Assembly: GCA_963678705.1 (NCBI GenBank)
Contig: OY783206.1
Coordinates: forward strand, 16,317,807-16,381,806
Origin: Panorpa germanica
Taxonomy: Eukaryota > Arthropoda > Insecta > Mecoptera > Panorpidae
Length of the DNA stretch: 64,000 bases
Direction: 5' to 3'
The notes under the pieces were generated by a model. The model was not told the origin of the DNA. It was given only the letters and a program-made list of their open reading frames with translations, and ran no database searches. Of the stretch, positions 2,928 to 42,707 are shown piece after piece. How positions within the stretch are numbered: position 1 is the stretch's first letter; every line of letters begins with the position of its first letter. The position numbers and the translations under genes are program-made.

Positions 2928-2962
2928 ACAACGTTAACTAAAGACCTAGGAGGCGAAATTTT

Positions 2963-4380: not shown

Positions 4381-5116
4381 CTAGAGTTTACCCTGTCGCA
4401 AGCGACGACTGTCTTTTGTATGTGAATTGAATTTCATTTCAAATTTTAATTACATTTTTAAATTAAAATATATAACTCGTTCCATATTTATTTTACATAT
4501 AACAACAAATAATTTTTCATATAAATTGACTAAAAAATATATATTTTTTTCAATTTGTTCATTATTTGACTAACTTTTTTTCAAAATTTGGGATTTTTTT
4601 TTCGATTTGAAAATTAGGTACCAAAGTTAGTCAATATATAAAATTTCAACTTTCTAGCCCTATTTTTAACCTCTGCAAAATCCGCCCCCGTGCCCCCAAA
4701 TATTTTTGTTGAATTTTGATTTTTTTTGTCTTAATAACATATTTCATTATTATGTAATACAAAATTTGAGTTTTCTCCAAAGTTTCCAACCGCGCCCCCT
4801 AATTTTCTCAAGGCTCCCTTTTTCAACTTTTTAATTTCTAATTTTCTTTTTAATACACATGCCAAATTTCAACTTTCTATCTTTTATGAATTAAAAGTTA
4901 TAGAGCAAAAAGAAAAAAAAATTTTTTTAGTTTTTCAAAATTCAGGGGAAAATCCGAGGACGCAAAAAGTCTTAGAATTTTTTTCTCTACAAAATAGGTA
5001 ATTTTCAGCCACCATACGTTTCCTTAGGTCGTTTTCGAGCCACCATACGAATCGCGTAAATATATAAACAAATAAATAAACATATAAACTTTCAGTTGGA
5101 ACATTATGATATAGGA
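4381..5116 (-). mobile_element. Solitary non-autonomous Helitron (short type)
   Basis: On the minus strand the element begins TCCTATATCATAATGTTCC and ends with a hairpin (GTCGCTTGCGAC), an A/G/T-rich spacer and CTAG. The bases outside are A before TC and T after CTAG, the canonical Helitron A|T target with no target duplication. The interior matches the short units of the 21-42 kb array, including the motifs around TTCTAAGACTTTT and the CCCGAATTT/GGGGGC blocks. No Rep-helicase is encoded, so it depends on a partner in trans. Length 736 bp. Confidence 0.83.
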
Positions 5117-21196: not shown

Positions 21197-21259
21197 TCTA
21201 CTTATTATAATGTTCGTAATGTTCCAATTTAACATGGAAAACCCATAAGAACTCATAGA

Positions 21260-21261
<2 letters not shown>

Positions 21262-21308
<47 letters not shown>
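21262..21308 (+). repeat. TA microsatellite in unit A
   Basis: About 23 uninterrupted TA dinucleotides, at the same place inside the Helitron 5' region as the TA runs at 26777 and 29713. Confidence 0.9.
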
Positions 21309-21312
<4 letters not shown>

Positions 21313-21600
21313 CGATATTTATATATCCGGTAACAAAATCGTATATGGTATCTTCTAAACGGCGCCTACAAAGTTCTTCAAATTTTGGTATGATGTAAAG
21401 GACGAATTTCTAAGACTTTCTACGTCCCTTAATTTTTCCCTGAATTTCCGTGGAAAAACTTATACTGGAAAAACTGGAAAATTCGAAAAAATATTTTTGC
21501 TAATATCTGACGAACTAGAAAAGATAGAAAACTGAAATTTGGTGTGTGTATTGAGATCATAATTGTGCACATTTGCCAATAGTTGGAAATTGGAAATTAA

Positions 21601-22700
21601 AGTTCAGTAGCGGCGCGAATTTCCGGGGGCAATGTTAGAATAGAGTTAGGACGTTGAAATTTAATATGTAGGCTCGCTGTAGACAGTTATTAATGAAAAA
21701 AAATAAACAGCCCCAAATTTCCAGTGGCGGCGGGAGTTGAGACAGTAAAAGCCAGAAATATTGAAAATGTAGTATTATAACTTAGGGTATGTATGGAGAC
21801 ACTAATTGCGCATGTTTGCCAATAATTAGATTACCAAAATTTTAATTCAGTAGCGGCGTGATTTTTTAGGGGCAATGTCGCAACAGAGCTAGAACGTTAA
21901 AATTTGGAACGGGGGCCATATATAGAGTGTCATTAAAGACACACTATAGAAATTTGCAACTTTCCAGAGGCGGCGGGCGCTGGGGGCCAAAAACCAGATA
22001 TTTGAAATATATGGAGATGAAAGGCTATAGTTTAGAATATATATTCTTAGATACAAATAAAATAGATCCTCGTGCTAAAATTTAACAAACTTGTTCAGTA
22101 GCGGAGGTTTGTGGGGGGTACTAATGCTAAAATATATATACAAAACTGAAATTTAGTATGCAGATATAGATTGACATTATTATTACGAAAATATAAAAAA
22201 AACTACATTTTCTTAAGTGCAACATTAGAGTGGCGGGTGATAAACCGAATATAAGAACAATATAGAGGTACAACGATGATATTTTGCATGTAGAATATTA
22301 AATAGAAGCTAAATAGTTCTCTATAAGTCAGATATTCAAATTACATTCAGTAGTAGAATTGGATTGATTTTTGGTGCGTTTGTTGTGCTGTGAAATCGAA
22401 CAGGAGTGAGAGGTATAGGGGGGAAATAGTTAACAGCCCCAAATATCAAAAAATAGAAAAAGTGAAAAAATAGAAACTATGCACGTGCATATTTGCGAAA
22501 ATAAATTTAACCTTAGTAGCGGCGTTAAATTGGGGAAGTGGGGGCGGGAAAACGCTTTGCCAAAGAACTCAATTTTGAAATTTCGATCATTTATAAAAGT
22601 AGGGGTAGATAAAGGTAGTGAGAGTTGTTACGAGCAAAATAGATTGCTATGCCTAAAATTTGACAATTTTATTTCAGCTGCGGGGATTAATGGGGAGACT
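21601..22700 (+). repeat. Diverged 120 bp modules with a CAGTAGCGGCG core
   Basis: Cores near 21603, 21721, 21846, 21966, 22095, 22346, 22513 and 22672 (CAGTAGCGGCG, CAGTGGCGGCG, CAGAGGCGGCG, CAGTAGCGGAGG and similar) are each followed within 10-20 bases by a G-run. Between cores a GAAATTTAGTATG-like phrase recurs. The unit is a degenerate tandem array, not a gene. The same series occurs in units D, G and N. Confidence 0.6.
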
Positions 22701-23685
22701 AATATTATAACGTAAATATAAATACGAAATATAGAGTGTAAGATTACAGTACAGTTTTAATCATGTAAATGAATTGCTGTAATAGCGAATTGGTAGTGTC
22801 TGATTGGAGAAGAGTGTGGCGCTGGGATTCAGTTCTAAGTAACAGTGATGTTACAAGTAGTGGCGATAGATTATAATGGCTCTGGGAGGTAACCGTATTG
22901 CAGAATATGTGCTTTGGTGCTGAAAGTGAGGGTGGCGGGGTATGGGGATTGAATCGAAAGTGCAATAACGGTAAGGAAAAGGCCTAGAGATGAGATTATT
23001 AGGAGCGAACTGCTAGGCTTTCTTAAAAACATAAATGAATTGATGTAATTAGTAGGTTTACATTGAAATTAGTGAAAATTTTATCAAAGATTTATCTTAT
23101 CGAATAATTATTAAAAAATAATGTACTTCTAAGGATGAAATTTAGTATGCTGGTTGCCAGTAAAGTATTAATTTGGAAAACTAATTGTTAAGAGATTAGT
23201 ACGCAGGGGGTGGAAGCGCAGAATTATTTAATGATTGCGCTAAACGGGGGGTATAGGAAAGTGCCCTAATAAGCGATGATGTTCAGTTAAGCTGTAGTGT
23301 TGCAAGTGGGCGCATTATGGCAAAGGTGCAGATGATTACATTTAAAAGTGCGAGAACGATACAGAGCATGGAGCCAAGAGGTGCTTGATGTTTAGGGGCG
23401 GGGCAGTGGACATTGTTCAATACTGTGCTTTATTATGGTAAATGATAATATTACGCAGCGGGGGCGCTGTGAAAGTACTGTAAGGACCGACGATGCTCAG
23501 GGAAGAAGCGATGCAGAGTGCTAAAAGTAGGAGGCGCTTTATGGCAGAAGTTTAGAGGAATCAAATTAAAAGTTCGGAAACGTGAGAGAGCCAAGAGGTG
23601 ACGATTGGGGCTTATGGGCGGGGGCACTGGAGACTGGTACAGTGCTTTATTACTGTAAATAAAGGAATTATAACAAAATAATATT

Positions 23686-24276
23686 TTGCATTTTATTTGC
23701 GATATATACAGCAGACTTGGAGGGGGTAATGGAAAGAGAACAAGATGGGGGGTGCTAATAGGAAGACACTACAAGATATGGACTTTAGCATACGCTGACG
23801 ATATAGTCCTGTTGGCAAAAAGGGAAGGAGAGCTGCAGGAGATGGCTCACCGGCTAGGGAGATATATAGACAGGAAAGGACTAGAGTTAAATGTGGAAAA
23901 GACAAAAATTATGGTATTTAAAAAAGGGGGTGGAAAAAGAAGACATAAAAGGTGGAAATACAAGACAGAGGACATTGAAGAAGTAGAAGAATTCAAATAT
24001 CTGGGCTACACTTTTAAAAAGAACAATGGAGAAGAGGCTCAGATAAGGGAGGTAGCAAAGAAGGCGGAGCTAGCAATGCGACGGGTATGTGGACTAAGGG
24101 AAAAGGTATTTGGGGGGGACATACAAAAGAGAATATGGATGTTTGATAGACTGATAGCCAGTATGATGTTGTATGGACCAGAGGTTTGGGGGTGGAAGGA
24201 GCAAGAAAAGTTGGCAAGAATACAGGTGAGATATATTAAATGGGTACTATGGCTGGACAGGTGCACGCCAGGATAA
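23686..24276 (+). pseudogene. LINE reverse-transcriptase remnant (first copy)
   Basis: Contains the catalytic YADD box and about 150 residues of the thumb region that follow it (KGLELNVEKTKIMVFKKG, EEFKYLGYTF). The part upstream of YADD is in another frame: a phrase reading ADLEGVMERE precedes a single frameshift near 23745. It stops at TAA 24274. The remaining C-terminal coding sequence continues with stops and shifts. Confidence 0.8.
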
Positions 24277-25000
24277 ATGGCTATGGAGGAGCTAAAAAGG
24301 GATAAGATACGAATTAAAACAGGGGAAAGAGCAGTAAAATACGAGGAGAAATTCCACAGAGCGGAAAGAAAAATTTTAAAGTAAATAAGAGAGGATAGCA
24401 TAAAGAATGGGGAAAGGAGGAGGTACAAAAAAGAGAAAATAGTACTTTGAAAGGAATGGAATGGCGATCAAGGAGGCAGAGAGGAGAAGAGAAGAAGGTG
24501 GAAGAGGAGCTAAGGAGAAGGGATAAGGAGATACAACAGCAGGAGAGAATGGGAAAAATAGAAAAAAGTAACTACAATAAAAGATATAAAAGGTTATAAG
24601 AAAATACTGTGCCTCAGTACCTTATAGAAAAAGACATAAAATACGTAAGAAGAATAGCAAGGTTTAGATTGGGAAATGAGGAAAAAGGAAACAGATACTG
24701 GGAAAAGAGTGAGGAAAGAAAGTGTAGAGTGTGCGGAGCGAAGGACGAAACACTGGAGCACATTAAGTTTGAGGGTAAGGAAAAAGTAGCTAGCGAAAGG
24801 AATATTGGCCAGCTATTAAAGGGAGGCAGTGAAGGAAAGAGGTGGATGGCGGAAATAGTAAGAAGGAAAGGAAAAACAGAAGAATAAATAAGTTGGTGGA
24901 GAATAATGTAAATTTAATTGTAAGTTGAAGTATATGAAATGTATTAAGAATGTAGATTGTAAAGCCGAAAGGCGAACAATAAACAATATTTCAGGATTAT
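23694..25000 (+). mobile_element. 5'-truncated LINE (non-LTR retrotransposon) inside unit A
   Basis: Carries the reverse-transcriptase block LAYADDIVLLAKREGELQEM, a following EEFKYLGYTFKKN, VWGWKEQEK and a terminal CCHC-type motif, in broken frames. The 3' UTR ends with a small stem (GCCGAAAGGC) and AATAAACAAT. The corresponding place in unit D (29500-29580) lacks this segment and reads straight from ATATTTTGCATT to ATTTTCAATTTATC, so the LINE is an insertion into an ancestral unit. Confidence 0.8.
24609..24887 (+). pseudogene. LINE C-terminal zinc-knuckle remnant (first copy)
   Basis: Contains CRVCGAKDETLEHIKFEG, the C-x2-C-x7-H-x4-C type motif found at the end of these LINE proteins, preceded by RFRLGNEEKGNRYW. 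The last cysteine is replaced by Gly here, whereas the second copy keeps it. Confidence 0.75.
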
Positions 25001-25076
25001 TTTCTATTTATCAAATAACTTTTATTTATTCACAAATATTAAATACACGTCGCTTTGCGACGGGGCGAAGCGCTAG

Positions 25077-25839
25077 TATATTATAATGTCCCAGGTGTTT
25101 GAATCTATTCTTATATGTTTATATGTTTGGTACTGAATTTTGTATGGCAGCGCGAAAACGGCTCCGGCGATCTTTTTAAAAATTTCCTATTTCGTAGAGA
25201 AAAAAATTCTAAGACTTTTGGCGTCCCCGGATTTTCCCCTGAATTTCCTGGAAACCCGTAATTTTGGAAAAACTGGAAAATTCGAAAAAATACTTTTGCA
25301 AATATCTGACGAACTAGAAAACATAGAAAACTGAAATTTGGTATGTGTATTGAGATTATAATTGTGCACATTTTCCAATAGTTGGAAATTTGAAATTTGA
25401 GTTCAGTAGCGGCGCGAATTTTTGGGTGCAATGTTAGAATAGAGTTAGGACGTTCAAATTTAATATGTAGGCTCGCTGTAGACAGTAATTAATGAAAAAA
25501 AATAAACAGCCCCAAATTTCCAGTGGCGGCGGGAGTTGAGACAGTAAAAGCCAAAAATATTGAAAATGTAGTATTTATAACTTAGGGTATGTATTAAGAC
25601 ACTAATTGCGCATGTTTGCCAATAATTGGATTACCAAAATTTTAATTCAGTAGCGGCGTGATTTTTTGGGGGCAATGTCGTAACAGAGCTAGAACGTTGA
25701 TATTTGGAACGTGGGCCCTATATAGAGTGTCATTAAAGACACACTATAGAAAACTGCAACTTTCCAGAGGCGGCGGGCGCTGGGGGCCAAAGACCAGAAA
25801 TATGAAATATATAGAGATAGGGCTATAGTTTAAAAAATA
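25077..25839 (+). mobile_element. Helitron array unit B (long-type start, truncated)
   Basis: Begins TATATTATAATGTCCCAGG directly after CTAG, without the usual leading TC. It contains the shared TTCTAAGACTTTTGGCGTCC region and four CAGTAGCGGCG modules, and stops abruptly at AAAAAATA where the next 5' end starts. The same truncation point recurs in unit J. Confidence 0.75.
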
Positions 25840-25888
25840 TCCTATATTATAATGTTCCAACTGTTTGAATCTATTTTTATATTCTTAT
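25840..25888 (+). mobile_element. Helitron 5' stub (49 bp)
   Basis: TCCTATATTATAATGTTCC plus about 30 bases, followed at once by another TCCTATATTATAATG. Only the 5' end of a unit is present. Confidence 0.7.
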
Positions 25889-26706
25889 TCCTATATTATA
25901 ATGTTCCAACTGTTTGAATCTATTCTTATATTCTTATATGTTTATATGTTTGGTACTGAATTTTGTATGGCAGCGCGAAAACTTAGAAAAAAATTCTAAG
26001 ACTTTTGGCGTCTTCAGATTTTTCCCTGAATTACCTGGAAACCCGTAATTTTGGAAAAACTGGAAAAAAATTGAGCCCTTTTTTGCTGTATCACTTTTAA
26101 TTCGTAAAAGATAGAAAGTTGAAATTTTGCATGTGTATTAAGGTATTCAAAGCTGACATTTCTCAAAAATTAAAAATTCAAAAATTGACAAAGGGGGGGT
26201 TTAAGAAATTCGGGGGCCCGGTAGGGAACTTTGGAGAAAGTTTATATTCTGGATTTTAGAATAAAATAAGTATAGTATTAAAAAAAAAAATTCAAAATTT
26301 CAAAATTTTATTTGGGGGCTAAAAAAAAATTGTGCTAAAAATTTGAAATTTTGTATATAAGCTAACCTTGGTAACTTATTTACGAATCGAAAAAAAAAAT
26401 CCCAAATTTTGAAAAAAAGTTGGTCCAATAACGAATAAATTGAAAATATTTTATATTTTGTTGAAAAAAATATATTTTTTTAGTCAATTTATATGTGTTA
26501 ATGTATATGTGTGCGAGTTTATTATTTCAATTTAAAAGTAGAGTTAATTATAATATGTAATTACAAATTATTTTATTGGATTCAAATGATACACGCCAAA
26601 AAGAACCTTTGTGACGAGGGTAAACTGTAGTGGAATTTAAATTTTTACATGAAGTTCAAGTTACACACAAAAGACAGACGTCGCTTGCGACGGGGGTAAA
26701 AGCTAG
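25889..26706 (+). mobile_element. Helitron array unit C (short type)
   Basis: Starts TCCTATATTATAATGTTCC and ends with GTCGCTTGCGAC, GGGGGTAAAAG and CTAG (26703-26706). 818 bp. It matches the solitary element at 4381-5116 along its length in opposite orientation. Confidence 0.82.
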
Positions 26707-26769
26707 TCTTACTATTATAATGTTCGTAATGTTCCAATTTAACATGGAAAACTCATAAGAACTCATAGA

Positions 26770-26820
<51 letters not shown>

Positions 26821-29645
26821 TAGCTGTCCCGGCCACGCGTTGCTGTGCCTAACGTAGCGCCATCTATTGAATATTTACTCAATCTAGTCAACAGATTTCG
26901 ATTTACTCAACAGAATATTTACTCAATCTAGTCAACAGATGTCGCCATCATCGTCGCCCGATGTCATATGTCATATACAGATAATTAATAGACAAATAAT
27001 TAGCAATAAGATAAATAAATTGAGATGTAAGGTATCCTATCTTTCAAGTTGGATCAAACTGGACACGGTGTACAAATTTCATTAAAATCGGTTAAGTAGT
27101 TTAGGAGTCCATAGCGGACAACACAGTGACACGTAATTTATATATATTAAGATTTCCGGTAACAAAATCTGTATGGTATCTTCTAAACGGCGCCTACAAA
27201 GTTTTTTAAATTTTGATATTATGTAAATTACGAATTTCTAAGACTTTCTACGTCCCTGAATTTTTCCCTGAATTTCCCTGGAAAAAATTATTCTGGAAAA
27301 ACTGGAAAATTTGAAAAAATACTTTTGCAAATATCTGACGAACTAGAAAAGATAGGAAACTGAAATTTGGTATGTGTATTGAGATCATAATTGTGCACAT
27401 TTGCCAATAGTTGGACATTTGAAATTTAAGTTCAGTAGCGGCGCGAATTTCCGGGGGCAATGTTAGAATAGAGTTAGGACGTTCAAATTTAATATGTATG
27501 CTCGCTGTAGACAGTTATTAATGAAAAAAAATAAACAGCCCCAAATTTCCAGTGGCGGCGGGAGTTGAAACAATAAAAGCCAGAAATATTGAAAAAGAAG
27601 TATTAAAACTTTGGGAATGTATTGAGATACTAATTGCGCATGTTTGCCAATAATTGGATTACAAAAATTTTAATTCAGTAGCGGCGTGATTTTTAGGGGG
27701 CAATGTCGCAACAGAGCTAGAACGTTGATATTTGGAACGTAGGCCTTATATAGAGTGTCATTAAAGACAAACTATAGAAAACTGTAACTTTCCAGAGGCG
27801 GCGGGCGCTGGGGGGCCAAAAACCAGAAATATGAAATATATAGAGATGAAGGGCTATAGTTTAAAAAATATGTTCCTAATATGCAAATAAAATAGATCCC
27901 CGTGCTAAAATTTAACAAACTTGTTCAGTAGCGGAGGTTTGTTGGGGTACTAATGCTAAAATATAAATACAAAACTGAAATTTAGTATGCAGATATAGAT
28001 TGACATTATTATTACGAAAATATAAAAAAGCTACATTTTCTTAAGTGCAACATTAGAGTAGGGGGTGATTAACCGAGTATAAGAACAATATAGAGGTACA
28101 ACGATGATATTTTGCATGTAGAATATTAAATAGAAGCTAAATAGTTCTCTATAAGTCAGATATTCAAATTACATTTAGTAGTAGAATTGGATTGATTTTT
28201 GGTGCGTTTGTTGTGCTGTGAAATCGGACAGGAGTGACAGGTATAGGGGGGAAATAGTTAACAGCCCTAAATATAAAAAAATAAAAAAAGTGAAAAAGTA
28301 GAAACTATGCATGTGCATATTTAACCTTAGTAGCGGCGTGAAATTGGGGAAGTGGAGGCGGGAAAAAGCTTTGCCAAAGAACTCAATTTAGAAATTTCGA
28401 TCGTTTATAAAAGTAGGGGTAGATAAAGGTAGAGAGAGTTGCTACGAGCAAAATAGATTGCAATGCCTAAAATTTGACAATTTTATTTCAGGAGCGGGGA
28501 TTAATGGGGTGACTAATATTATAACGTAAATATAAATACGAAATATAGAATGTAAGATTACAGTACAGTTTTATTCATGTAAATGAATTGCTATAATATC
28601 GAATTAATAGTGCCTGATTGGAAGAGAGTGTGGCTTAGTTCAGTACTAAGTAACGGGGTGTTAGAAGTAGTGGCGATAGATTATAATGGCCCTGAGAGGT
28701 AACCGTGTTTCAGAATATGTGCTTTGGTGCTGAAAGTGTGGGTGGCGGGTATGGGGATTAAATCGAAAGTGCAATAACGGGAAGGAAAAGGCCTAGAGAT
28801 GAGATTATTAGGAGCGAACTGCTAGGCTTTCTTAAAAACATAAATGAATTGATGTAATTAGTAGGTTTACATTGAAATTAGTGAAAATTTTATCAAAGAT
28901 TTATCTTATCGAATAATTATTAAAAAATAATGTACTTCTAAGGATGAAATTTAGTATGCAGGTTGCCAGTATAGTATTAATTTTGAAAACTAATTGTTAA
29001 GAGAATTGTTAGTACGCAGGGGGTGGAAGCGCAGGATAATTTAATGATTGCGTTAACGGGGGGGATAGGAAAGTACCCTAATGAGCGATGATGCTCAGGT
29101 AGCCTGTAGTGTTGCAAGTGGGCGCATTGTGGCAAATATGCAGATGAATACAATTAAAAGTGCAAGAACGATACAGAGCATGGAGCCAAGAGGTGATTGG
29201 TGTTTAGGGGCGGGGCAGTAGACATTGATCAATACTGTGCTTCATTATGGTTAATGAAAATTTTACGCAGCGGGGGCGCTGTGAAAGTATTTTAAGGACC
29301 GACGATGCTCAGGGAAGAAGCGATGCAGAGAGCTAAAAGTAGAAGGCGCTCCATGGCGGAAGTTTAGAGGAATCAAATTAAAAGATCGGAAACGTAAGAA
29401 AGCATGGAGCCAAGAGGTGACGATTGGGGCTTATGGGCGGGGGCACTGGAGACTGGTCAATACAGTGCTTTATAACAGTAAATAAAGGAATTATAACAAA
29501 ATAAGGAAATATAAATTTAAAAAATGATATATTTTTGCGAAAATTACTTAAAAATAATATTTTGCATTATTTTCAATTTATCAAATAACTTTTTTTATTC
29601 ACAAATATTAGATACACGTCGCTTTGCGACGGGGCGAAGCGCTAG
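26707..29645 (+). mobile_element. Helitron array unit D (long type, no LINE)
   Basis: Starts TCTTACTATTATAATGTTCG and ends CGCTTTGCGACGGGGCGAAG then CGCTAG (CTAG 29642-29645). It carries a TA run and a 0.33 kb foreign repeat near its 5' end. It lacks the LINE found in units A and G, so it serves as the empty-site reference. Confidence 0.82.
26819..27151 (+). mobile_element. Repeat inserted at the TA run of unit D
   Basis: Begins ACTAGCTGTCCCGGCCACGC and ends CACAGTGACACGTAATTTA then TATATTAAGAT. This start/end combination is widespread among insect interspersed repeats. It has no coding frame and has probably inserted into the TA microsatellite. I cannot name its class with confidence. Confidence 0.55.
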
Positions 29646-29708
29646 TCTACTTATTATAATGTTCGTAATGTTCCAATTTAACATGAAAAACTCATAAGAA
29701 CTCATAGA

Positions 29709-29793
<85 letters not shown>
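29646..29793 (+). mobile_element. Helitron 5' stub E with TA run
   Basis: TCTACTTATTATAATGTTCG and about 65 bases of the normal 5' region, then a TA microsatellite (29713-29790). No 3' end before the next 5' end begins. Confidence 0.75.
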
Positions 29794-29836
29794 TCATATA
29801 TTATAATGTCCCAGGTGTTTGAATCTATTCTTATCA
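29794..29836 (+). mobile_element. Helitron 5' stub F (43 bp)
   Basis: TCATATATTATAATGTCCC and about 24 bases, then A|TC of unit G. Confidence 0.65.
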
Positions 29837-32800
29837 TCTACCTATTATAATGTTCGTAATGTTCCAATTTAACATGGAAAACCCATAAGAACTCATAGAT
29901 ATTTATATATATAGAGCGATATTTATATATATATCCGGTAACAAAATCGTATATGGTATCTTCTAAACGGCGCCTACAAAGTTCTTCAAATTTTGGTATG
30001 ATGTAAAGGACGAATTTCTAAGACTTTCTACGTCCCTGAATTTTTCCCTGAATTTCCGTGGAAAAACTTATACTGGAAAAACTGGAAAATTCGAAAAAAT
30101 ACTTTTGCTAATATCTGACGAACTAGAAAAGATAGAAAACTGAAATTTGGTGTGTGTATTGAGATCATAATTGTGCACATTTGCCAATAGTTGGAAATTG
30201 GAAATTTAAGTTCAGTAGCGGCGCGAATTTCCGGGGGCAATGTTAGAATAGAGTTAGGACGTTCAAATTTAATATGTAGGCTCGCTGTAGACAGTAATTA
30301 ATGAAAAAAAATAAGCAGCCCCAAATTTCCAGTGGCGGCGGGAGTTGAGACAATAAAAGCCAGAAATATTGAAAAAGAAGTATTAAAACTTTGGATATGT
30401 ATTAAGACATTAATTGTGCATGTTTGCCAATAATTGGATTACCAAAATTTTAATTCAGTAGCGGCGTGATTTTTTAAATTAAAGACACACTATAGAAATT
30501 TGCAACTTTCCAGAGGCGGCGGGCGCTGGGGGCCAGAAACCATATATTTGAAATATATGGCGATGAAAGGCTATAGTTTAGAATATATATTCTTAGATAC
30601 AAATAAAATAGAACCTCGTGCTAAAATTTGACAAACTTGTTCAGTAGCGGTGGTATGTGGGGGGTACTAATGCTAAAATTTAAATACAAAGCTGAAATTT
30701 AGTATGCAGATATAGATTGACAATAACAATAAAAATATAAAGAAACTACATTTTCTTTAGTGTAACATTAGGGCAGAGGTAATAAACTGATAATAAGTAC
30801 GATAAAGAGGTACATATTTGGACTTTAATTCAGTAGCGGAGATATGTGAGAGGCTCTAATGCTAAAATGAACAAAACTGGAAAATTCGAAAAAATACTTT
30901 TGTAAATATCTGACGAACTAGAAAAGATAGATAACTGAAATTTGGTATGTGTATTGAGATCATAATTGTGCACATTTGCCAATAGTTGGAAACTAGAAAC
31001 TTAAGTTCAGTAGCGGCGCGAATTTCTGGGAGCAATGTTGGAATAGAGTAAGGACGTTCAAATTTAATATGTAGGCTCCTTGTGGACAGTAATTAATGAA
31101 GAAAATAAACAGCCCTAAATTTCCAGTGGCGGCGGGAGTTGAGACAATAAAAGCCAAAAATATTGAAAGAGAAGTATTAAAACTTTGGGTATGTATTGAG
31201 ATACTAATTGTGCATGTTTGCCAATAATTGCATTACAAAAATTTTAATTCAGTAACGCCTTGATTTTTAGGGGGCAATGTCGCAACAGAGCTAGAACGTT
31301 GATATTTGGAACGTAGGCCTTATATAGAGTGTCATTAAAGACAAACTATAGAAAACTGTTACTTTCCAGAGGCGGCGGGCGCTGGGGGCTAAAAACCAGA
31401 AATATGAAATATATAGAGATGAAGGGCTATAGTTTAAAAAATATGTTCTTAGATACAAATAAAATACATCCCCGTGCTAAAATTTAACAAACTTGTTCAG
31501 TAGCGGAGGTTTGTGGAGGGTACTAATGCTAAAATATAAATACAAAGCTGAAATTTAATATGCAGATATAGATTGACATATTTATTACGAAAATATAAAA
31601 AAAAACTACATTTTCTTAAGTGCAACATTAGAGTGGGGATTGATATACCGAGTATAAAAACAATATAGAGGTACAACGATGATATTTAGCATGTAGAATA
31701 TTAAATAGAAGCTTAATAGTTCTCTATAAGTCAAATATTCAAATTACATTCAGTAGTAGAATTGGATTGATTTTTGGTGCGTTTGTTGTGCTATGAAATC
31801 AAACAGGAGTGAGAGGTATAGGGGGGAAATAGTTAACAGCCCCAAATATCAAAAAAATAAAAAAAGTTAAAAAATAGAAACTATGCATGTGCATATTTGC
31901 GAAAATGAATTTAACCTTAGTAGCGACGTAAAATTGGGGAAGTTGGGGCGGGAAAAAGCTTTGCCAAAAAACTCAATTTTGAAATTTCGGTCATTTATAA
32001 AAGTAGGGGTAGATAAAGGTAGAGAGCTAAAAATATGACAAAAATTTAACAATTTTATTTCAGGAGCGGGGATTAATGGGAAGACTAATATTATAACGTA
32101 AATATAAATACGAAATATAGAATGTAAGATTACAGTACAGTTTTAATCATGTAAATGAATTGCTGTAATATCGAATTGGTAGTGCCTGATTGGAGGAGAG
32201 TGTGGCGCTGGGGTTCAGTACTAAGTAACGGTGGTGTTAGAAGTAGTGGCGATAGATTTTAATGGCTTTGAGAGGTAACCGTGTTGCAGAATTTATGCTT
32301 TGCTGTTGAAAGTGTGGGTGGCGGGGCATGAGAATTAAATCGAAAGTGCAATAACGGGAAGGAAAAGGCCTTGAGATGAGATTATTAGAAGCGAACTGCT
32401 AGGCTTTCTTAAAAACATAAATGAATTGATGTAATTAGTAGGTTTACATTGAAATTAGTATAAAATTTATTAAAGATTTATCTTATCGAATAATTATTAA
32501 AAAATAATGTACTTCTAAGGATGAAATTTAGTATGCAGGTTGCCAGTAAAGTATTAATTTTGAAAACTAATTGTTAGGAGATTAGTACGCAGGGGGTGGA
32601 AGCGCAGGATTATTTAATGATTGCGCTAAACGGGGGGATAGGAAAGTGCCCTAGTGAGCGATGATGTTTAGGTGGGCTGTAGTGTTGCAAGTGGGCGCAT
32701 TGTGGCAAAGGTGCAGATGAATACAATTAAAAGTGCGAGAACGATACAGAGCATGGAGCCAAGAGGTGATTGATGTTTAGGGGCGGGGCAGTGGACATTG

Positions 32801-33081
32801 TTCAATACTGTGCTTCATTATGGTAAATGATAATTTTACGCAGCGGGGGCGCTGTGAAAGTACTCTAAGGACCGACGATGCTCAGGGAAGAAGCGATGCA
32901 GAGTGCTAAAAGTAGGAGGCGCTTCATAGCAGAAGTTTAGAGGAATCAAATTAAAAGTTCGGAAACGTAAGAGAGCATGGAGTCAAGAGGTGACGATTGG
33001 GGCTTATTGGAGGGGGCACTGGCGACTGGTCAATACAGTGCTTTATTACTGTAAATAAAGGAATTATAACAAAATTATATT

Positions 33082-33549
33082 TTGCATTTTATTTGCGATA
33101 TATACAGCAGACTTGGAGGGGGTAATGGAAAGAGGACAAGATGGGGGGTGCTAATAGGAAGACACTACAAGATATGGACTTTAGTATACGCTGATGATAT
33201 AGTCCTGTTGGCAAAAAGGGAAGGAGAGCTGCAGGAGATGGCTCACTGGCTAGGAAGATATATAGACAGGAAAGGACTAGAGTTAAATGTGGAAAAGACA
33301 AAAATTATGGTATTTAAAAAAGGGGGTGAAAAAAGAAGACATAAAAGGTGGAAATACAAGACAAAGGATATTGAGGAAGTAGAAGAATTTAAATATCTGG
33401 GCTACACTTTTAAAAAGAACAATGGAGAAGAGGCTCAGATAAGGGAGGTAGCAAAGAAGGCGGAGCTAGAAATGCGACGGGTATGGGACTACGGGAAAAG
33501 GTATTTGGGGGGGACATACGAAAGAGAATATGGATGTTTGATAGACTGA
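33082..33549 (+). pseudogene. LINE reverse-transcriptase remnant (second copy)
   Basis: Contains YADDIVLLAKREGELQEM and EEFKYLGYTFKKNNGEEAQI. A base loss near 33483 shifts the frame. The continuation (frame at 33483-33833, with LREKVFGGDIRKRIWMFDRL and VWGWKEQEK) is in a different frame. Confidence 0.8.
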
Positions 33550-33833
33550 TAGCCAGTATGATGTTATATGGAGCTGAGGTTTGGGGGTGGAAGGAGCAAG
33601 AAAAGTTGGAAAGAATACAGGTGAGATATATTAAATGGTTACTAGGGCTGGACAGGTGCACGCTAGGATACATGGCTATGGAGGAGCTAAAATGGGATAA
33701 GATACGAATTAAAACAGGGGAAAGAGCAGTAAAATACGAGGAAAAGAACAGAGCGGAAAGCAAAATTTTAAGGAAAATAAGAGAGGATTGCATAAAGAAT
33801 GGGGGGGAAGGAGGTACAAAGAAGACAAAATAG
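33483..33833 (+). pseudogene. LINE C-terminal region after frameshift (second copy)
   Basis: Continues the thumb region of the preceding remnant (FDRLIASMMLYGAEVWGWKE, YIKWLLGLDRCTLGYMAMEE). It ends at a stop at 33831. The knuckle domain follows in yet another frame. Confidence 0.7.
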
Positions 33834-34007
33834 TACATTGAAAGGAATGGAATGGCGATCGAGGAGGCAGAGAGGAGAAGAGAAGGAGGCGCAAGTGTGG
33901 AAGAGGAGCTAAGGAGAAGGGATAAGAAGATACAACAGCAGGAGAAAATGGGAAAAATAGAAAAAAGTAACTACAATAAAAGATATAAAAGGTTATAAGA
34001 AAATAAT

Positions 34008-34244
34008 GTGCCTCAGTACCTTATAGAAAAAGACATAAAACACATAAGAAGAACAGCAAGGTTTAGATTGGGAAATGAGGAAAAAGGAAACAGATACTGG
34101 GAAAAGAGTGAGGAAAGAAAGTGTAGAGTGTGCGGAGCGAAGGACGAAACACTGGAGCACATTAAGTTTGAGTGTAAGCAAAAAGTAGCTAGCGAAAGGA
34201 ATATTGGCCAGCTATTAAAGGGAGGCAGTGAAGGAAAGAGGTGA
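34008..34244 (+). pseudogene. LINE zinc-knuckle remnant (second copy)
   Basis: Contains CRVCGAKDETLEHIKFEC with all motif residues intact. An in-frame stop (TGA) ends it at 34244, where the first copy reads Trp and continues 14 residues further. Confidence 0.72.
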
Positions 34245-34475
34245 ATGGCGGAAATAGTAAGAAGGAAAGGAAAAACAAAAGGATAAATAAGTTGGTGGAG
34301 AATAATGTAAATTTAATTGTGAGTTGAAGTATATGAAATGTATTAAGAATGTAGATTGTAAAGCCGAAAGGCGAACAATAAACAATATTTCAGGATTATT
34401 TTCTATTTATCAAATAACTTTTATTTATTCACAAATAATAAATACACGTCGCTTTGCGACGGGGCGAAGCGCTAG

Positions 34476-35295
34476 TCATATATTATAATGTCCCAGGTGT
34501 ATATTTATATTCTTATGATCTTATGATCTTATATTCTTATATGTTTATATGTTTGGTTCAAATTTTGTATGGCATCTCGAAAACGGCTCCAGGGAAGTTT
34601 TTGAAAATTTCCTATTTAGTAGAGAAAAAAATTCTAAGACTTTTGGCGTCCCCGGATTTTCCCCTGAATTTTGTGGAAACCCGTAATTTTGGAAAAACTG
34701 GAAAAAAAGTGATCCCTTTTTTGCTGTATTACTTTTAATTCGTAGAAGATAGAAAGTTGAAATTTTGCATGTGTATTGAGCTATTTAATGCTGACATTTC
34801 TCAAAAATTAAAATTTCAAAAATTGAAAAAGGGGGGGTTTAAGAAATTCGGGGGCCCGGTAGGGAACTTTTGAGAAAGTTCATATTCTGGATTCTAGAAT
34901 AATTAAGTATATTATTAATAAAAAAAAATTCAAAATTTCAAAATTTTGTTTGGGGGCACGGGGGGCAGTATTTGCCGAGAGTAAAAATTGTGCTAGAAAG
35001 TTGAAATTTTGTATATAGACTAACCTTGGTAACTTATTTACGAATCAAAAAAAAAAATTCCAAATTTTGAAAAAAAATTGGTCAAATAACGCATAAATTG
35101 AAAATATTTTTTATTTTGATAAAAAAAATATATTTTTTAGTCAATTTATATGTGTCAATGCATTTGTGCGAGTTTATTTATTATTTCAATTTAAAAATAG
35201 AACAGTGAAATATGAAATTTAATTACGAATTATTTTATTGGATTCAAATGATACACCCCAAAAAGACGTCGCATTCCGACGGGGGTAAACTCAAG
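34476..35295 (+). mobile_element. Helitron array unit H (short type)
   Basis: Starts TCATATATTATAATGTCCC. Its 3' hairpin reads CGTCGCATTCCGACG with one changed base, and it ends TCAAG instead of CTAG, so its 3' end is mutated. 820 bp. Confidence 0.78.
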
Positions 35296-36093
35296 TCTAT
35301 TATAATGTCCCAGCTGTATATTTATATTCATATATGTTTGTCTTTATATGTTTGGTTCGAATTTTGTACGGCATCTTGAAAACGGCTCCAGGGAAGTTTT
35401 TAAAAATTTCCTATTTCGTAGAGAGAAAAATTCTAAGACTTTTGGCGTCCCCGGATTTTTCCCTGAATTTCCTGGAATCCCGTAATTTTGGAAAAACTGG
35501 AAAAAAAGTGATCCCTTTTTTGCTGTATTACTTTTAATTTGTATAAGATAGAAAGTTGAAATTTTGCATGTGTATTAAGGTATTCAATGCTGACATTTCT
35601 CAAAAATTAGAAATTCAAAAATTGAAAAGGGGGTGGTTAAAGAAATTCGGGGGCCCGGCAAGGAACTTTGGAGAAAATTCATTTTCTGGATTCTAGAATA
35701 ATTAAGTATATTATTAATAAAAAAAAAATTCAAAATTTTAAAATTTTATTGGGGGGCACAAGGGCAGTATTTGCCGAGAGTAAAAATTGTGCTAGAAAGT
35801 TGAAATTTTGTATATAGGCTAACCTTGGCAACTTATTTACGAATCGAAAAAAAAATCCCAAATTTTGGAAAAAAATTGGTCAAATATCGCATAAATTCAA
35901 AATATTTTTTATTTTGATATAAGAAATGTATTTTCTTAGTCAGTTTGTATGAAAAATTAATTGTTATTAAATGTTAAATCAATATAGGACGAGTTTATTT
36001 ATTATTTCACTTTAAAAATGTAATTAAATTTTGACTTGAAATTCAAGCCACTCACAAAAAACAAACGTCGCTTGCGACGGGGGTAAAAGCTAG
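35296..36093 (+). mobile_element. Helitron array unit I (short type)
   Basis: Starts TCTATTATAATGTCCCAGC and ends GTCGCTTGCGAC, GGGGGTAAAAG and CTAG (36090-36093). 798 bp. Confidence 0.8.
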
Positions 36094-36858
36094 TCATATA
36101 TTATAATGTCCCAGGTGTTTGAATCTATTCTTATGATCTTATATGTTTGGTACTGAATTTTGTATGGCAGCGCGAAAACGGCTCCGGCGATCTTTTTAAA
36201 AATTTCCTATTTCGTAGAGAAAAAAATTCTAAGACTTTTGGCGTCCCCGGATTTTTCCCTGAATTTCCTGGAAACCCGTAATTTTGGAAAAACTGGAAAA
36301 TTCGAAAAAATACTTTTGCAAATATCTGACGAACTAGATAAGATAGAAAACTGAAATTTGGTATGTGTATTGAGATTATAATTGTGCACATTTTCCAATA
36401 GTTGGAAATTTGAAATTTGAGTTCAGTAGCGGCGCGAATTTTTGGGGGCAATGTTAGAATAGAGTTAGGACGTTCAAATTTAATATGTAGGCTCGCTGTA
36501 GACAGTAATAATTGAAAAAAAATAAACAGCCCCAAATTTCCAGTGGCGGCGGGAGTTGAGACAGTAAAAGCCAAAAATATTGAAAATGTAGTATTATAAC
36601 TTAGGGTATGTATTAAGACACTAATTGCGCATGTTTGCCAATAATTGGATTACCAAAATTTTAATTCAGTAGCGGCGTGATTTTTTGGGGGCAATGTCGT
36701 AACAGAGCTAGAACGTTGATATTTGGAACGTGGGCCCTATATAGAGTGTCATTAAAGACACACTATAGAAAACTGCAACTTTCCAGAGGCGGCGGGCGCT
36801 GGGGGCCAAAGACCAGAAATATGAAATATATAGAGATAGGGCTATAGTTTAAAAAATA
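36094..36858 (+). mobile_element. Helitron array unit J (long-type start, truncated, twin of B)
   Basis: Starts TCATATATTATAATGTCCC. It is nearly identical to unit B and is truncated at the same base, followed by the same 5' stub and a short unit. B-stub-C and J-stub-K are therefore two copies of one composite element. Confidence 0.8.
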
Positions 36859-36915
36859 TCCTATATTATAATGTTCCAACTGTTTGAATCTATTTTTATA
36901 TTCTTATATTCTTAT
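36859..36915 (+). mobile_element. Helitron 5' stub (57 bp)
   Basis: TCCTATATTATAATGTTCC and about 38 bases, a slightly longer version of the stub at 25840 because of an extra TTCTTATA repeat. Confidence 0.7.
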
Positions 36916-37788
36916 TCCTATATTATAATGTTCCAACTGTTTGAATCTATTCTTATATTCTTATATGTTTATATGTTTGGTACTGAATTTTGTATGGCAG
37001 CGCGAAAACGGCTCCATCAATGTTTTTGAAAATTTCCTATTTCGTAGAGAAAAAAATTCTAAGACTTTTGGCGTCCCCAGATTTTCCCCTGAATTTCCTG
37101 GAAACCCGTAATTTTGGAAAAACTGGAAAAAAATTGAGCCCTTTTTTGCTGTATCACTTTTAATTCGTAAAAGATAGAAAGTTGAAATTTTGCATGTGTA
37201 TTAAGGTATTCAAAGCTGACATTTCTCAAAAATTAAAAATTCAGAAATTGACAAAGGGGGGGTTTAAGAAATTCGGGGGCCCGGTAGGGAACTTTGGAGA
37301 AAGTTTATATTCTGGATTTTAGAATAATTAAGTATAGTATTAAAAAAAAAAAATTCAAAATTTCAAAATTTTATTTGGGGGCACGGGGGCAGTATTTTCC
37401 GAGAGTAAAAATTGTGCTAGAAATTTGAAATTTTGTATATAAGCTAACCTTGGTAACTTATTTACGAATCGAAAAAAAAAATCCCAAATTTTGAAAAAAA
37501 GTTGGTCCAATAACGAATAAATTGAAAATATTTTATATGTTGTTGAAAAAAATATATTTTTTTAGTCAATTTATATGTGTTAATGTATATGTGTGCGAGT
37601 TTATTATTTCAATTTAAAAATAGAGTTAAATATAATATGTAATTACAAATTATTTTATTGGATTCAAATGATACACGCCAAAAAGAACCTTTGTGACGAG
37701 GGTAAACTGTAGTGGAATTTAAATTTTTACATGAAGTTCACGTTACACACAAAAGACAGACGTCGCTTGCGACGGGGGTAAAAGCTAG
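36916..37788 (+). mobile_element. Helitron array unit K (short type, twin of C)
   Basis: Starts TCCTATATTATAATGTTCC and ends CTAG (37785-37788) after the GTCGCTTGCGAC hairpin. 873 bp. Unit C appears to be this unit with about 50 bases missing near its 5' region and a shorter central G-rich block. Confidence 0.8.
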
Positions 37789-38538
37789 TATTCTTATATT
37801 CTTATATGTTTGGTACTGAATTTTGTATAGCAGCGCGAAAACGGCTCCGGCGATCTTTTTAAAAATTTCCTATTTTGTAGAGAAAAAAATTCTAAGACTT
37901 TTGGCGTCCCCGGATTTTTCCCTGAATTTCCTGGAAACCCGTAATTTTGGAAAAACTGGAAAAAAAGTGATCCCTTTTTTGCTGTATTACTTTTAAGTCG
38001 TAAACGATAGAAAGTTGAAATTTTGCATGTGTATTAAGGTATTCAATGCTGACATTTCTCAAAAATTAGAAATTCAAAAATTAAAAAAGGGGGGGTTGAA
38101 GAAAATCGGGGGCCCGTTAGGGAACTTTGGAGAAAGTTCATATTCTGGATTCTAGAATAACTAAGTATATTATCAATAAAAAAAAATTCAAAATTTAAAA
38201 ATTTTATTGGGGGGCACGGGGGCAGTATTTGCCGAAAGTAAAAATTGTGCTAGAAAATTGAAATTTTGTATGTAGGCTAACCTTAGTAACTTATTTACGA
38301 ACCGAAAAAAAAAATCGCAAATTTTGAAAAAAAGTTTATCAAATAACGCATAAATTGAAAATATTTTTTATTTTGATAAAAAAAATATATTTTTTAGTCA
38401 ATTTATATGTGTGGCGAGTTTATTTATTATTTCAATTTAAAAATAGAATTAAATATGAAATGTAATTACGAATTATTCTATTGGATTCAAATCATACACG
38501 ACAAAAGGACGTCGCATTGCGACGGGGGTAAACTCTAG
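37789..38538 (+). mobile_element. Helitron array unit L (short type, 5' end missing)
   Basis: Begins TATTCTTATATTC, lacking about 45 bases of the normal 5' end. Ends CGTCGCATTGCGACG, GGGGTAAACT and CTAG (38535-38538). Confidence 0.78.
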
Positions 38539-39300
38539 GGATCTTATATTCTTATATATGTTTGGTAGTAAATTTTGTATGGCAGCGCGAAAACGGCTTC
38601 GTCAATGTTTTTGAAAATTGCCTGTTTCGTAGAGAAAATTTTTTTAAGACTTTTGGCGTCCCCGGATTTTTCCCTGAATTTCCTGGAAACCCGTAATTTT
38701 GGAAAAACTGGAAAAAAGTAAGCCTTTTTTGCTGTATTACTTTTAATTCGTAAAAGATGGAAAGTTGAAATTTTGCATGTGTATTAAGGTATTTTATGCT
38801 GACATTTCGCAAAAATTAGAAATTCAAAAATTGAAAAAGGGGGGGTTGAACAAATTCGGAGGCCCGGTAGAAAACTTTGGAGAAAGTTCATATTCTAGAT
38901 TCTAGAATAATTAAGTGTATTATTAATAAAAGAAAAATTCAAAATTTTATTTGGGGGGCACGGGGGGCAGTAATTTCCGAGTGTAAAAATTGTGCTAGAA
39001 AGTTGAAATTTTGTATATAGGCTAACCGTGGTAACTTATTTACTAATCGAAAAAAAATCCCAAATTTTGAAAAATAGTTGGTCAAATAACGCATGAATTG
39101 AAAATATTTGTTATTTTGATATAAAAAATATAATATATTTCCTTAGTCAGTTTGAATGAAAAATTAATTGTTATAATATGTAAAATTAATATAGGACGAA
39201 TTTATTTATTATTTCAGTTTAAAAATGGAATTAAATTTTGACATGAAATTCAAGCCACACACAAAAAACAAACGTCGCTTGCGACGGGGGTAAAAGCTAG
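38539..39300 (+). mobile_element. Helitron array unit M (short type, 5' end missing)
   Basis: Begins GGATCTTATATTC, also without the TC start. Ends with the GTCGCTTGCGAC hairpin and CTAG (39297-39300). Confidence 0.78.
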
Positions 39301-41724
39301 TTTATATATATTTCCGGTAACAAAATCTATATGGTATCTTCTAAACGGCGCCTACAAAGTTTTTTAAATGTTGATATTATGTAAAGGACCAATTTCTAAG
39401 ACTTTCTACGTCCCTGAATTTTTCCCTGAATTTCCCTGGAAAAAATTATTCTGGAAAAACTGGAAAATTCGAAAAAATACTTTTGCAAATATCTGACGAA
39501 CTAGAAAAGATAGAAAACTGAAATTTGGTATGTGTATTAAGATCATAATTGTGCACATTTGTAAATAGTTGGACATTTAAAATTTGAGTTCAGTAGCGGC
39601 GCGAATTTCCGGGGGCAATGTTAGAATAGAGTTAGGACGTTCAAATTTAATATGTATGCTCGCTGTAGAAAGTTATTAATGAAAAAAAATAAACAGCCCC
39701 AAATTTCCAGTGGCGGCGGGAGTTGAGACAGTAAAAGCCAGAAATATTGAAAAAGTAGTATTAAAACTTAGGGTATGTATTAAAACACTAATTGCGCATG
39801 TTTGTCAATAATTGGATTACCAAAATTTTAATTCAGTAGCGGCGTGATTTTTTAGGGGCAATGTTGCAACAGAGCTAGAACTTTGATATTTGCAACGTGA
39901 GCCCTACATAGAGTGTCATTACAGACAAACTATAGAAAACTGCAACTTTCCAGAGGCGGCGGGGGCTGAGGCCCAAAAACCAGAAATATGAAATATATAG
40001 AGATGAAAGGCTATAGTTTAGAATATGTGTTCTTAGATACAAATAAAATAGATCCCTGTGTTAAAATTTAAAAAACTTGTTTAGTAGCGCAGGTATGTGG
40101 GGGGTACTAATGCTAAAATATAAATACAAAGCTGAAATTTAGTATGCAGATATAGATTGACATATTAATAACGAAAATATAAAAATAACAACATTTTCTT
40201 AAGTGTAACACTAGAGTGGGGGGTGATAAACCGAGTATAAGAACATAATAGAGGTACAACGATGATATTTTGCATGTAGAATATTAAATAGAAGCACAAT
40301 AGTTCTCTATAAGTTAGATAGTCAAATTACATTTAATAGTAGAATTGAATTGATTTTTGGTGCGTTTGTTGTGCTGCGAAATCGAACAGGAGTGAGAGGT
40401 ATAGGGGGGGAAAAGTTAACAGCCCCAAATATTAAATTAAAAAAATAGAAACTACGCATGTGCATATTTGCGAAAAATAAATTTACCCTTAGTAGCGGCG
40501 TGAAATTTGGGAAGTGGGGGCGGGAAAAGCTTTGCCAAAGAGCTCAATTTTGAAATTTCGATCATTTATAAAAGTAGAGGTAGATAAAGGTTATAAAGGT
40601 AGAGAAAATTGTTACGAGCAAAATAGATTGTTATGCCTACAATTTGACAATTTTATTTCAGGAGCGGGGATTAATGGGGAGACTAATATTATATCGTAAA
40701 TATAAATACGAAAATTAGAACGTAAGAATACAGTGCAGTTTTAATTATGTAAATGAATAACTGTAATATCGAATTGGTAGTGCTTGATTGTAGGAGAGGG
40801 TGGCGCTGGGGTTCAGTACTAAGTAACGGTGGTGTTAGAAGTAGTGGCGATAGATTAATATTGGCTCTGGGAGGTAACCGTGTTGCAGAATAAAATTCTA
40901 TCGTAAATATAAATACGAAAATTAGAACGTAAGATTACAGTGCAGTTTTAATTATGTAACTGAATTGCTGTAATATTGAATTGGTAGTGCCTGATTGGAG
41001 GGGAGGGTGGCGCCGGGGTTCAGGACACCAAGTAACGGTGGTCTTAGAAGAAGTAGCGAAAGATTATAATGGCTCTGGGAGGAAACCGTGTTGTAGAATA
41101 TGTGCTTTGGTGCTGGAAATGTGGGCGGCGGTTCAGGGGATTAAATTGAAAGTACAATAACGGGAAGGATAAGGGCTAGAGATGAGATTATTAGGAGCAA
41201 ACCGCTAGGCTTTCTTAAAAACATAAATGAATTGATGTAATTAGTAGGTTTACATTGAAATGAGTGAAAATTAGTTTTATCAAGCATTTATCTTATCAAA
41301 TAATTATTAAAAAATAATGTACTTTTAAGGATGAAATTTAGTAGGTAGGTAGCCAGTAAAGTACTAATTTTGAAAAGTAATTGTTAATAGATTACGCAGG
41401 GGGTGAAAGCGCAAGATTATTTAATGATTGCGGTAAAACAGGGGCGATAGGAAAGTGCCGTAATGAGCGATGATGCTCAGGTGGGCTGTGGTGTTGCAAG
41501 TGGCCGCATTGTGGCAGAGGTGCAGAGGAATACAATTGAAAGTGCGAGAACGATACAGAGCATGGAGCCAAGAGGTGATGATTGGTATTTAGGGGCGGGG
41601 CAGTGGACATTGTTCAATACTGTGCTTCATTAGGGTAAATGATAATTTTACACAGAGAGGAGGAATATTATATACTCAAACAAATATTATATACTCGTCG
41701 CTCTGCGACGGGGCGAAGCGCTAG
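39301..41724 (+). mobile_element. Helitron array unit N (long type, 5' end missing)
   Basis: Begins TTTATATATATTTCCGG, so the 5' end and TA run are mostly gone. It has the module series of unit D, no LINE, a 207 bp internal duplication, and ends CGTCGCTCTGCGACG, GGGCGAAGCG and CTAG (41721-41724). Confidence 0.78.
40692..41105 (+). repeat. 207 bp tandem duplication in unit N
   Basis: TATCGTAAATATAAATACG starts at 40692 and 40899, and both are followed by the same TTAGAACGTAAG, GAATTGGTAGTGC, GGGAGG series. The copies differ at several sites. Confidence 0.75.
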
Positions 41725-42511
41725 TCCTATATTATAATGTTCCAAGTGTTTGAATCTATTCTTATATTCTTATGATCTTATATGTTTGGTACTGAATTTT
41801 GTATGGCAGCGCGAAAACGGCTCCAGGGAAGTTTTTAAAAATTTCCTATTTCGTAGAGAAAAAAATTCTAAGACTTTTGGCGTCCCCGGATTTATCCCTG
41901 AATTTCCTGGAAACCCGTAATTTTGGAAAATCTGGAAAAAAAGTGATCCCTGTATTACTTTTAATTCGTAAAAGATAGAAAGTTGAAATTTTGCATTTGT
42001 ATTAAGGTATTTAATGCTGACATTTCTCAAAAATTAGAAATTCAAAAATTGAAAAAGGGGTGGTTGAAGTAATTCGGGGGCCCGTTAGGGAACTTTGGAG
42101 AAAGTTCATATTCTGGATTCTAGAATAATTAGGTATATTATCAATGAAAAAAAATTCTAAATTTCAAAATTTTATTGGGGGGCACGGGGGCAGTATTTAC
42201 CGAGAGTAAAAATTGTGCTAGAAAATTGAAATTTTGTATGTAGGCTAACCTTGGTAACTTATTTACGAATCGAAAAAAAAAATCATAAATTTTGAAAAAA
42301 AGTTGGTCAAATAACGCATAAATTGAAAATATTTTATATTTTGATATAAAAAATATATTTTCTTAGTCAATTTGTATGAAATATTATTTGTTATTATATA
42401 TAAAATTAATATAGGACGAGTTTATTTATTATTTCAATTTAAAAATGGAATTAAATTTTGACAAGCCACACATAAAAAACAGACGTCGCTTGCGACGGGG
42501 GTAAAAGCTAG
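41725..42511 (+). mobile_element. Helitron array unit O (short type, last)
   Basis: Starts TCCTATATTATAATGTTCC and ends GTCGCTTGCGAC, GGGGGTAAAAG and CTAG (42508-42511). The next base is host T (42512). 787 bp. Confidence 0.82.
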
Positions 42512-42707
42512 TAATTTATAACTCCGGTCATAAATCATAAACCGACTCCGCTTTTAATTCACCAGTGAACCGTCGTTGCAATGTCTGTAGCTCATAAATA
42601 GGCCATTTCCTATGAACGAGTGAATAGAAAACGAACACGTTCCAGACAAAAAACTCATGAAATGTAATAGAAATTAAGTAGAATTTACTCCAAAATGTTT
42701 ACTGGGT
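42512..42707 (+). other. Short host gap between Helitron array and MITE
   Basis: Host sequence with no gene seen. A CGACTCCG block near 42543 resembles hAT-type repeat ends. Confidence 0.4.

Follow-up and report, generated by a model that had tools for sequence, protein, structure and literature searches.

Serial nested insertion as the probable origin of a 21-kb head-to-tail Helitron array in Panorpa germanica

The genome of Panorpa germanica (Mecoptera; Panorpidae) contains a 21,315-bp array of Helitron units, all of them on the + strand and joined head to tail, which is set as a whole between one host A and one host T. We examined it within a window of 64,000 nucleotides (the whole stretch of DNA analysed here; GenBank assembly GCA_963678705.1, contig OY783206.1, positions 16,317,807 to 16,381,806, or G000:C3:16317807-16381806 in our numbering) and against the genome at large (464 Mb, 249 contigs); positions given without a contig are those of the window. 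An earlier note on this DNA had described a one-orientation array of about 21 kb between the A at 21196 and the T at 42512, and its coordinates (21197-42511), strand and flanks were all verified. Our analysis suggests that the array was probably built by serial insertion at A|T sites lying at or inside the 5' ends of resident copies, coupled with the mobilisation of segments that begin at an outer 5' end and run through to a later 3' end.

Eleven 3' ends can be recognised in the array (25076, 26706, 29645, 34475, 35295, 36093, 37788, 38538, 39300, 41724 and 42511), built as a GC-rich hairpin (CGTCGC..GCGACG) that is separated by 10 nt from a terminal CTAG, as in Helitron1-type elements. The hairpin is intact at 10 of the 11; at 35295 the stem is mutated and CTAG is changed to CAAG. 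These ends fall into two types, namely L (GCGAAGCGCTAG) and S (GTAAAAGCTAG or GTAAACTCTAG/CTCAAG, or close variants thereof). The bare hexamer CTAGTC occurs 15 times in the window against 11.95 expected and is thus not enriched, so that the evidence for the array rests on the hairpin context. Long matches between blocks of the array (68-95% identity) are far beyond chance, and the units they define (Table 1) belong to three classes: a long A type with an L end (U1, U3, U4, U10), a short B type of 750-820 bp with an S end (U5, U6, U8, U9, U11), and chimeras in which an A-like body is followed by a B stub and a B unit (U2, U7). Complete units, such as U11 and a solitary copy elsewhere in the window, run from TC to CTAG, i.e. 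they have canonical Helitron1-type termini. About 314-324 bp from 26820 within U3 match neither of the two reference units, and hence the array does not consist purely of this family.

The unit boundaries can be read directly from the sequence, as can the T that follows 10 of the 11 3' ends. At six of the 10 internal junctions (26707, 29646, 34476, 35296, 36094 and 41725) the next unit begins with TC, whereas the others open with TATATT (25077), TATTC (37789), GGATC (38539) and TTTATA (39301); the earlier claim that the internal junctions are CTAG|TC is therefore correct for the former (with CAAG in place of CTAG at 35295) and fails for the latter. The related claim that inner junctions are G|T and not A|T did not survive either, as the internal 5' starts at 25840, 29794, 29837 and 36859 all have an A in front. 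Nor do independent insertions need an A|T between units, as had been argued: the host A and the first T of the resident themselves constitute the A|T target, and insertion between them leaves CTAG|TC with no A expected between the units.

Table 1. Units, stubs and remainders of the Helitron array, with the solitary relative in the window
Feature	Position	Strand	Remark
U1, A-type (TCTACTTATT...L-type CTAG), with reverse transcriptase (RT) fragment	21197..25076	+	host A at 21196 in front
U2, chimera: A-like body, B 5' stub 25840-25888, full B unit 25889-26706	25077..26706	+	begins TATATTATAATG, without TCN
U3, A-type, with other DNA at ~26820-27133 in AT repeat	26707..29645	+	
A-type 5' stub, broken off within (AT)n	29646..29790	+	
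TCA mini-stub ahead of second TC start	29791..29793	+	TCA is the commonest triplet here among the first 100 listed
B-type 5' stub, 40 nt, ends CTTA	29794..29833	+	read as head of B-B dimer resumed at 37789
Second TCA mini-stub	29834..29836	+	
U4, A-type, L-type 3' end, with RT fragment	29837..34475	+	A in front
U5+U6, B-B dimer, inner 3' end mutated (CTCAAG at 35295)	34476..36093	+	host-flanked copy with same layout: L025
U7, chimera of U2 kind, inner B stub 36859-36915	36094..37788	+	94.7% identical to U2
U8+U9, B-B dimer remainder without first ~40 nt, inner junction CTCTAG|GGATC	37789..39300	+	
U10, A-type remainder without first ~119 nt	39301..41724	+	
U11, complete B unit, 787 bp, then host T	41725..42511	+	nearest relatives found 93% identical, on other contigs
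Solitary relative in window	4381..5116	-	host A and T at flanks

The same junctions and target preferences recur throughout the genome. There are 2119 exact S-type 3' ends, with T as the next base in 2112 of them; taken with the A and T at the two edges of the array, this indicates, as judged from outer flanks and 3' neighbours, that copies enter between A and T and duplicate no target bases. Exact junctions of an S end with a B-type 5' end (CTAGTCNTATATTATAATGT) number 502, and in another 343 places an S end is joined directly to TATATTATAATG, a junction of the form expected if a copy enters a resident at TCA|TATATT, three bases from its start. Doubled 5' triplets of the form TCNTCN occur 870 times, and the first 100 listed have A as their first N in 78 cases, C in 16, T in 4 and G in 2; this fits what an A|T rule would favour, with the qualification that the commonest start after CTAG among the listed exact B-type junctions is TCC. 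Finally, the base preceding 43 exact 5' starts (taken from the window and 23 of 34 fetched loci, leaving out L001, which is the window's solitary copy, and including one copy twice because L007 and L028 overlap) is A in 20 cases, the end of a CTAG in 13, C in 7 (all of them TCC|TCC) and T in 3.

The history that we favour would run as follows. Copies of a non-autonomous Helitron family would have arrived one by one, each between an A and a T. Insertion at the 5' boundary of a resident, between the host A and the resident's TC, would give rise to a CTAG|TC junction, and insertion a few to ~145 nt inside its AT-rich 5' end would leave a 5' stub upstream and a T-initial, 5'-less remainder downstream. 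Some of the incoming units would already have been chimeric, having formed when transposition began at an outer 5' end and ran on to an inner or later 3' end. We infer about nine insertion events and their order, all nested in one host A|T. The two 3'-end types, the 5'-less units and the 5' stubs, which had been singled out previously, are indeed present and can be explained by such nested self-insertion together with inherited chimeras.

The 5'-less units and 5' stubs appear largely to complement each other within the array. The join of 29796-29833 to 37789 is identical to the corresponding part of a dimer elsewhere (L025) over 36 nt, and the 40-nt B stub together with U8 (750 nt) amounts to 790 nt, eight intact dimers (paired by hand from lists for contigs C1 and C2) spanning 774-806 nt. 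The A stub (29646-29790) and the A remainder that starts at 39301 would join inside an AT repeat and are compatible, a join which by its nature cannot be exact. Under the pairing we prefer, stubs and remainders close in a last-in, first-out order. An initial reading had bracketed the stub at 36859-36915 with U8 and the stub at 29796 with U9; by length it is still permissible, and it was replaced because chimeras of the U2 kind recur elsewhere at full length with their stub included and the junction between U8 and U9 recurs as well.

Further evidence comes from the dispersal of the composite units. The U2-type chimera occurs nearly full length at 28 further places outside the array, on 11 contigs and with 86-96% identity, several of these places being close together and hence not all independent, and some lying inside other arrays. 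The inner junction of U8 (CTCTAG|GGATCTTATATT) is found 116 times in the genome, this one included, on many contigs; thus U8+U9 is very probably an inherited B-B dimer. Similarly, L025 is a dimer flanked by host DNA that carries the junction CTCAAG|TATATT and is laid out as in U5+U6. As the same chimeras recur elsewhere, the other odd joints too are best viewed as inherited. The inner ends retained in these dimers are altered (CAAG and CTCTAG|GG), and U2 and U7 are explained if transposition starts at the outermost 5' end and stops as soon as it meets a functional 3' end.

Several observations weigh against this history or do not sit easily with it. Stubs and remainders can be paired in more than one way because the joins sit in short AT-rich repeats: the stub 36859-36914 with U8 would amount to 806 nt, which also falls within 774-806 nt, and both joins of the initial reading (U8 after the stub at 36859, U9 after that at 29796) likewise gave clean alignments. 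The junction of the B stub with U4 has one exact occurrence genome-wide, but three more lie within 2 mismatches of it, and since B stub-TCA-A unit chimeras are found at L032, the stub might have arrived together with U4. U2 begins with TATATT and yet no TCA stub is left of U1 (AAACTA|TCTAC), so that the junction at 25077 is not closed; U9 begins with G instead of T, which is accounted for only by an inherited junction; and the internal starts at 25889 and 36916 come after T, not A. When an S end lies downstream of a TCATC start, TATATT is next in 6 of 15 cases as against 14 of 85 others (one-sided Fisher p 0.046), an association that goes the way nested insertion predicts but is weak in that 9 of the 15 ends lack TATATT; this count, like that of the clusters below, was made on the first 100 of the 2119 S ends, which all lie below 9.35 Mb on C1, along with the parts of the other lists from the same region. 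Finally, the strand bias of neighbouring copies (41 of 45 pairs, and 11 of 12 abutting pairs) is not predicted by an A|T target.

This bias deserves closer description. Same-strand clusters in which no gap exceeds 5 kb account for 58 of the first 100 S ends. Where neighbouring S ends are no more than 5 kb apart, 41 pairs are on the same strand and 4 on opposite strands, as against some 5 pairs in all expected by chance. Duplicated blocks contribute to these figures (one cluster recurs with a period of 5281); when counted by cluster and not by pair there are 17 same-strand cases against 4 (p 0.004). Likewise, 11 of the 12 abutting pairs in the U11 list share one orientation. Since A|T is palindromic, target choice on its own predicts no strand bias, so that what still calls for an explanation is the apparent preference for the 5' ends of residents that share the orientation of the incoming copy. 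One tentative possibility, to which we give rather less than even weight, is that the target is the resident's own initiation site, where the transposase would cut the plus strand at the 5' end and the incoming copy would be joined to the strand thus opened. If so, insertion would be strand-specific, always upstream and always head-to-tail; it would explain both the same-strand neighbours and the position of the junctions at exactly +0 or +3, and Helitrons of this family would accrete in one direction at their own 5' ends far above chance, with the resulting chimeras then spreading. In the sole abutting pair of opposite orientation in the U11 list (G000:C7:2537270-2538113), a complete copy is succeeded by a reversed one of which bases 1-40 are present, an arrangement compatible with insertion into the other strand at a comparable inner position.

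Some arrays elsewhere in the genome are organised differently. Two homogeneous head-to-tail Helitron blocks, L032 (G000:C1:10876000-10883200) and L031 (G000:C1:9511000-9520000), show 98.9% identity and periods of ~3.75 kb and ~5.02 kb, respectively, the latter repeating a block of two elements. They may be candidates for true rolling-circle concatemers or for recent tandem duplication. In L032 the repeating element is one TC...CTAG unit that opens with a B stub, so that the genome may contain real concatemers or local duplications alongside its nested arrays. A further region, G000:C1:4073358-4086490 (partly L029), is a higher-order Helitron repeat with 3'-end spacings of 2570, 1877 and 834 bp and a period of 5281.

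The higher-order repeat and the two-element block of L031 lend some plausibility to a rival account in which unequal crossing-over or segmental duplication enlarged the array from a small number of insertions, and within our array U5-U6-U7a does align to U8-U9-U10a over 2.3 kb at 86%. That match, however, is explained by both segments being a B-B dimer followed by an A-like body. Moreover, the corresponding dimer halves (U5/U8 91%, U6/U9 88%) are more alike than the halves within each dimer (U5/U6 84%, U8/U9 82%), U2 is closer to a copy on another contig (96%) than to U7 (95%), and most unit boundaries coincide exactly with CTAG, a precision for which crossing-over has no need. We accordingly regard this account as unlikely.

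The earlier note had left the choice between a concatemer and serial growth from one integration; serial growth at one host A|T is what we retain. A concatemer would imply that a circular intermediate was copied repeatedly and integrated once, its units diverging afterwards. The head-to-tail order between one host A and one host T, the exact CTAG|TCN junctions, which with a B 5' end recur in hundreds, and the homogeneous blocks just described, which could themselves be concatemers, all speak for such an origin. But the units of the window are of at least two kinds, and within a kind they are far from near-identical (82-95% identity, i.e. divergence of ~5-18%). Besides the within-dimer values, adjacent units show 89% (U7/U8) and 92% (U3/U4), and distant ones 89% (U6/U11), 93% (U1/U4) and 95% (U2/U7). 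In a genome search with U11 (40 of 4339 candidates scored; 69 matches listed) the best relatives have 91-93% identity, the best besides itself (93%) lying on C5, and none of the other 68 matches listed is an array mate; in that with U2 (40 of 7319 scored; 131 listed) the best besides itself is again on C5, though these percentages are not strictly comparable with those between units, which come from BLAST with settings of its own. Neighbours are thus no more alike than distant units, and for the two units searched, U11 and U2, closer relatives exist outside the array, which makes a concatemer from one integration improbable. A circle further predicts neither stubs with complementary remainders nor junctions shifted by 3 nt, and exact 3'-to-5' joins are found at some but not all of the internal junctions. 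On these grounds we reject a concatemer for this array as very unlikely.

Of similarly low probability is growth of the array on its 3' side through noncanonical insertion at the G|T that follows the 3' end of a resident. Such insertion also yields CTAG|TC, with a T at the outer edge, and is one of two readings of presence/absence data from maize (PMC2267711), but it gives no stub/remainder pairs, no internal starts preceded by A and no CTAG|TATATT junctions. Least probable of all is an artefact by which the assembler joined or collapsed separate loci, given that units of one kind differ by enough for long reads to distinguish them, that the same kinds of junction occur hundreds of times on many contigs, and that contigs of 10-48 Mb suggest a long-read assembly.

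Tandem Helitrons, G|T junctions, self-insertion and chimeras with several termini have all been published, as the following reports indicate. Du et al. 2008 (PMC2267711) describe adjacent head-to-tail maize Helitrons with a G/T junction, and weigh a concatemer, noncanonical GT insertion and canonical insertion between a host A and the resident's T; their presence/absence data from the polymerase chain reaction fit 3' GT insertion unless clean excision is assumed, which is a further point against the nested history we favour. The maize case resembles ours in a CTAG|TC junction that unites dissimilar Helitrons; it differs in involving two elements at one locus, as against about nine events and hundreds of junctions genome-wide. 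In Fusarium oxysporum, self-insertion into the 5' end of a resident is reported for the FoHelis (PMC5148889), with the proposal that transposition starts at the leftmost 5' terminus and stops at the first 3' terminus, giving elements with several 5' termini and one 3' end; the same source mentions one Metarhizium case of three tandem copies open to the same two readings. The FoHelis differ in having Helitron2-type ends and in being described from a few cases; in P. germanica the ends are canonical (TC/CTAG), the arrays are long, and a single search places one chimera nearly full length at 30 sites. Another maize study (PMC3288121) reports that nested copies give rise to chimeras whose inner 3' ends are mutated, an intact CTAG being absent from 99 of 100 of them, much as the inner ends of our array are altered; the word "tandem" is absent from its main text. 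Tandem arrays of bats and plants, cited in PMC5876387 in support of rolling-circle transposition, share the head-to-tail order, whereas the present array is heterogeneous and nested. For insects we found no description of such arrays in the openly licensed literature, including passages from three papers on insect Helitrons (PMC6544945, PMC4344730 and PMC3789558).

What stands out in P. germanica is the unusual scale and the same-strand bias, the latter being a concrete mechanistic puzzle. Whether head-to-tail Helitrons with G/T joints arise as concatemers or by successive insertion has been debated since the maize and bat reports (PMC2267711). With hundreds of junctions of several kinds, and stubs and remainders that record landing sites, the question becomes addressable by counting and dating. 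The dispersed copies also suggest how chimeras assembled by a short non-autonomous Helitron can go on to spread.

Autonomous elements that might mobilise the family are plentiful: we scored 150 of 893 candidate matches to Helitron_like_N, many of which have open frames of more than 1000 aa. One locus (L034) encodes a 1486-aa frame with Helitron_like_N and a PIF1-type helicase, and its 3' end (...GTCGCGGGCAAAAGCTAG|T) is similar to the S end; at the two other autonomous loci examined (L033 and L035) no S-like 3' end was found. On this similarity of ends we would guess that L034 is the partner transposase of the array family. The ends of L034 presumably resemble those of lepidopteran Helitrons.

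The array also carries sequence that is probably of other origin. RT fragments (RVT_1, C-terminal part) lie on the + strand at 23674-24276 in U1 and 33070-33833 in U4, the profile match covering 23674-24276 and 33070-33549; they were probably captured by, or inserted into, an A-type ancestor. The unmatched DNA in the AT repeat of U3 (26820-27133, ~314 bp) begins CTAGCTGTCCCGG and is perhaps another transposable element. Elsewhere in the window, a perfect tandem duplication of a 185-bp unit (2558-2939; 2.1 copies, 100% match) adjoins a transposase-like frame at 2942-3352 with no Pfam match, a TMEM132-type gene lies on the minus strand at 57-59 kb, and two copies of another repeat (42707-43334 and 48921-49542) are 89% identical to each other.

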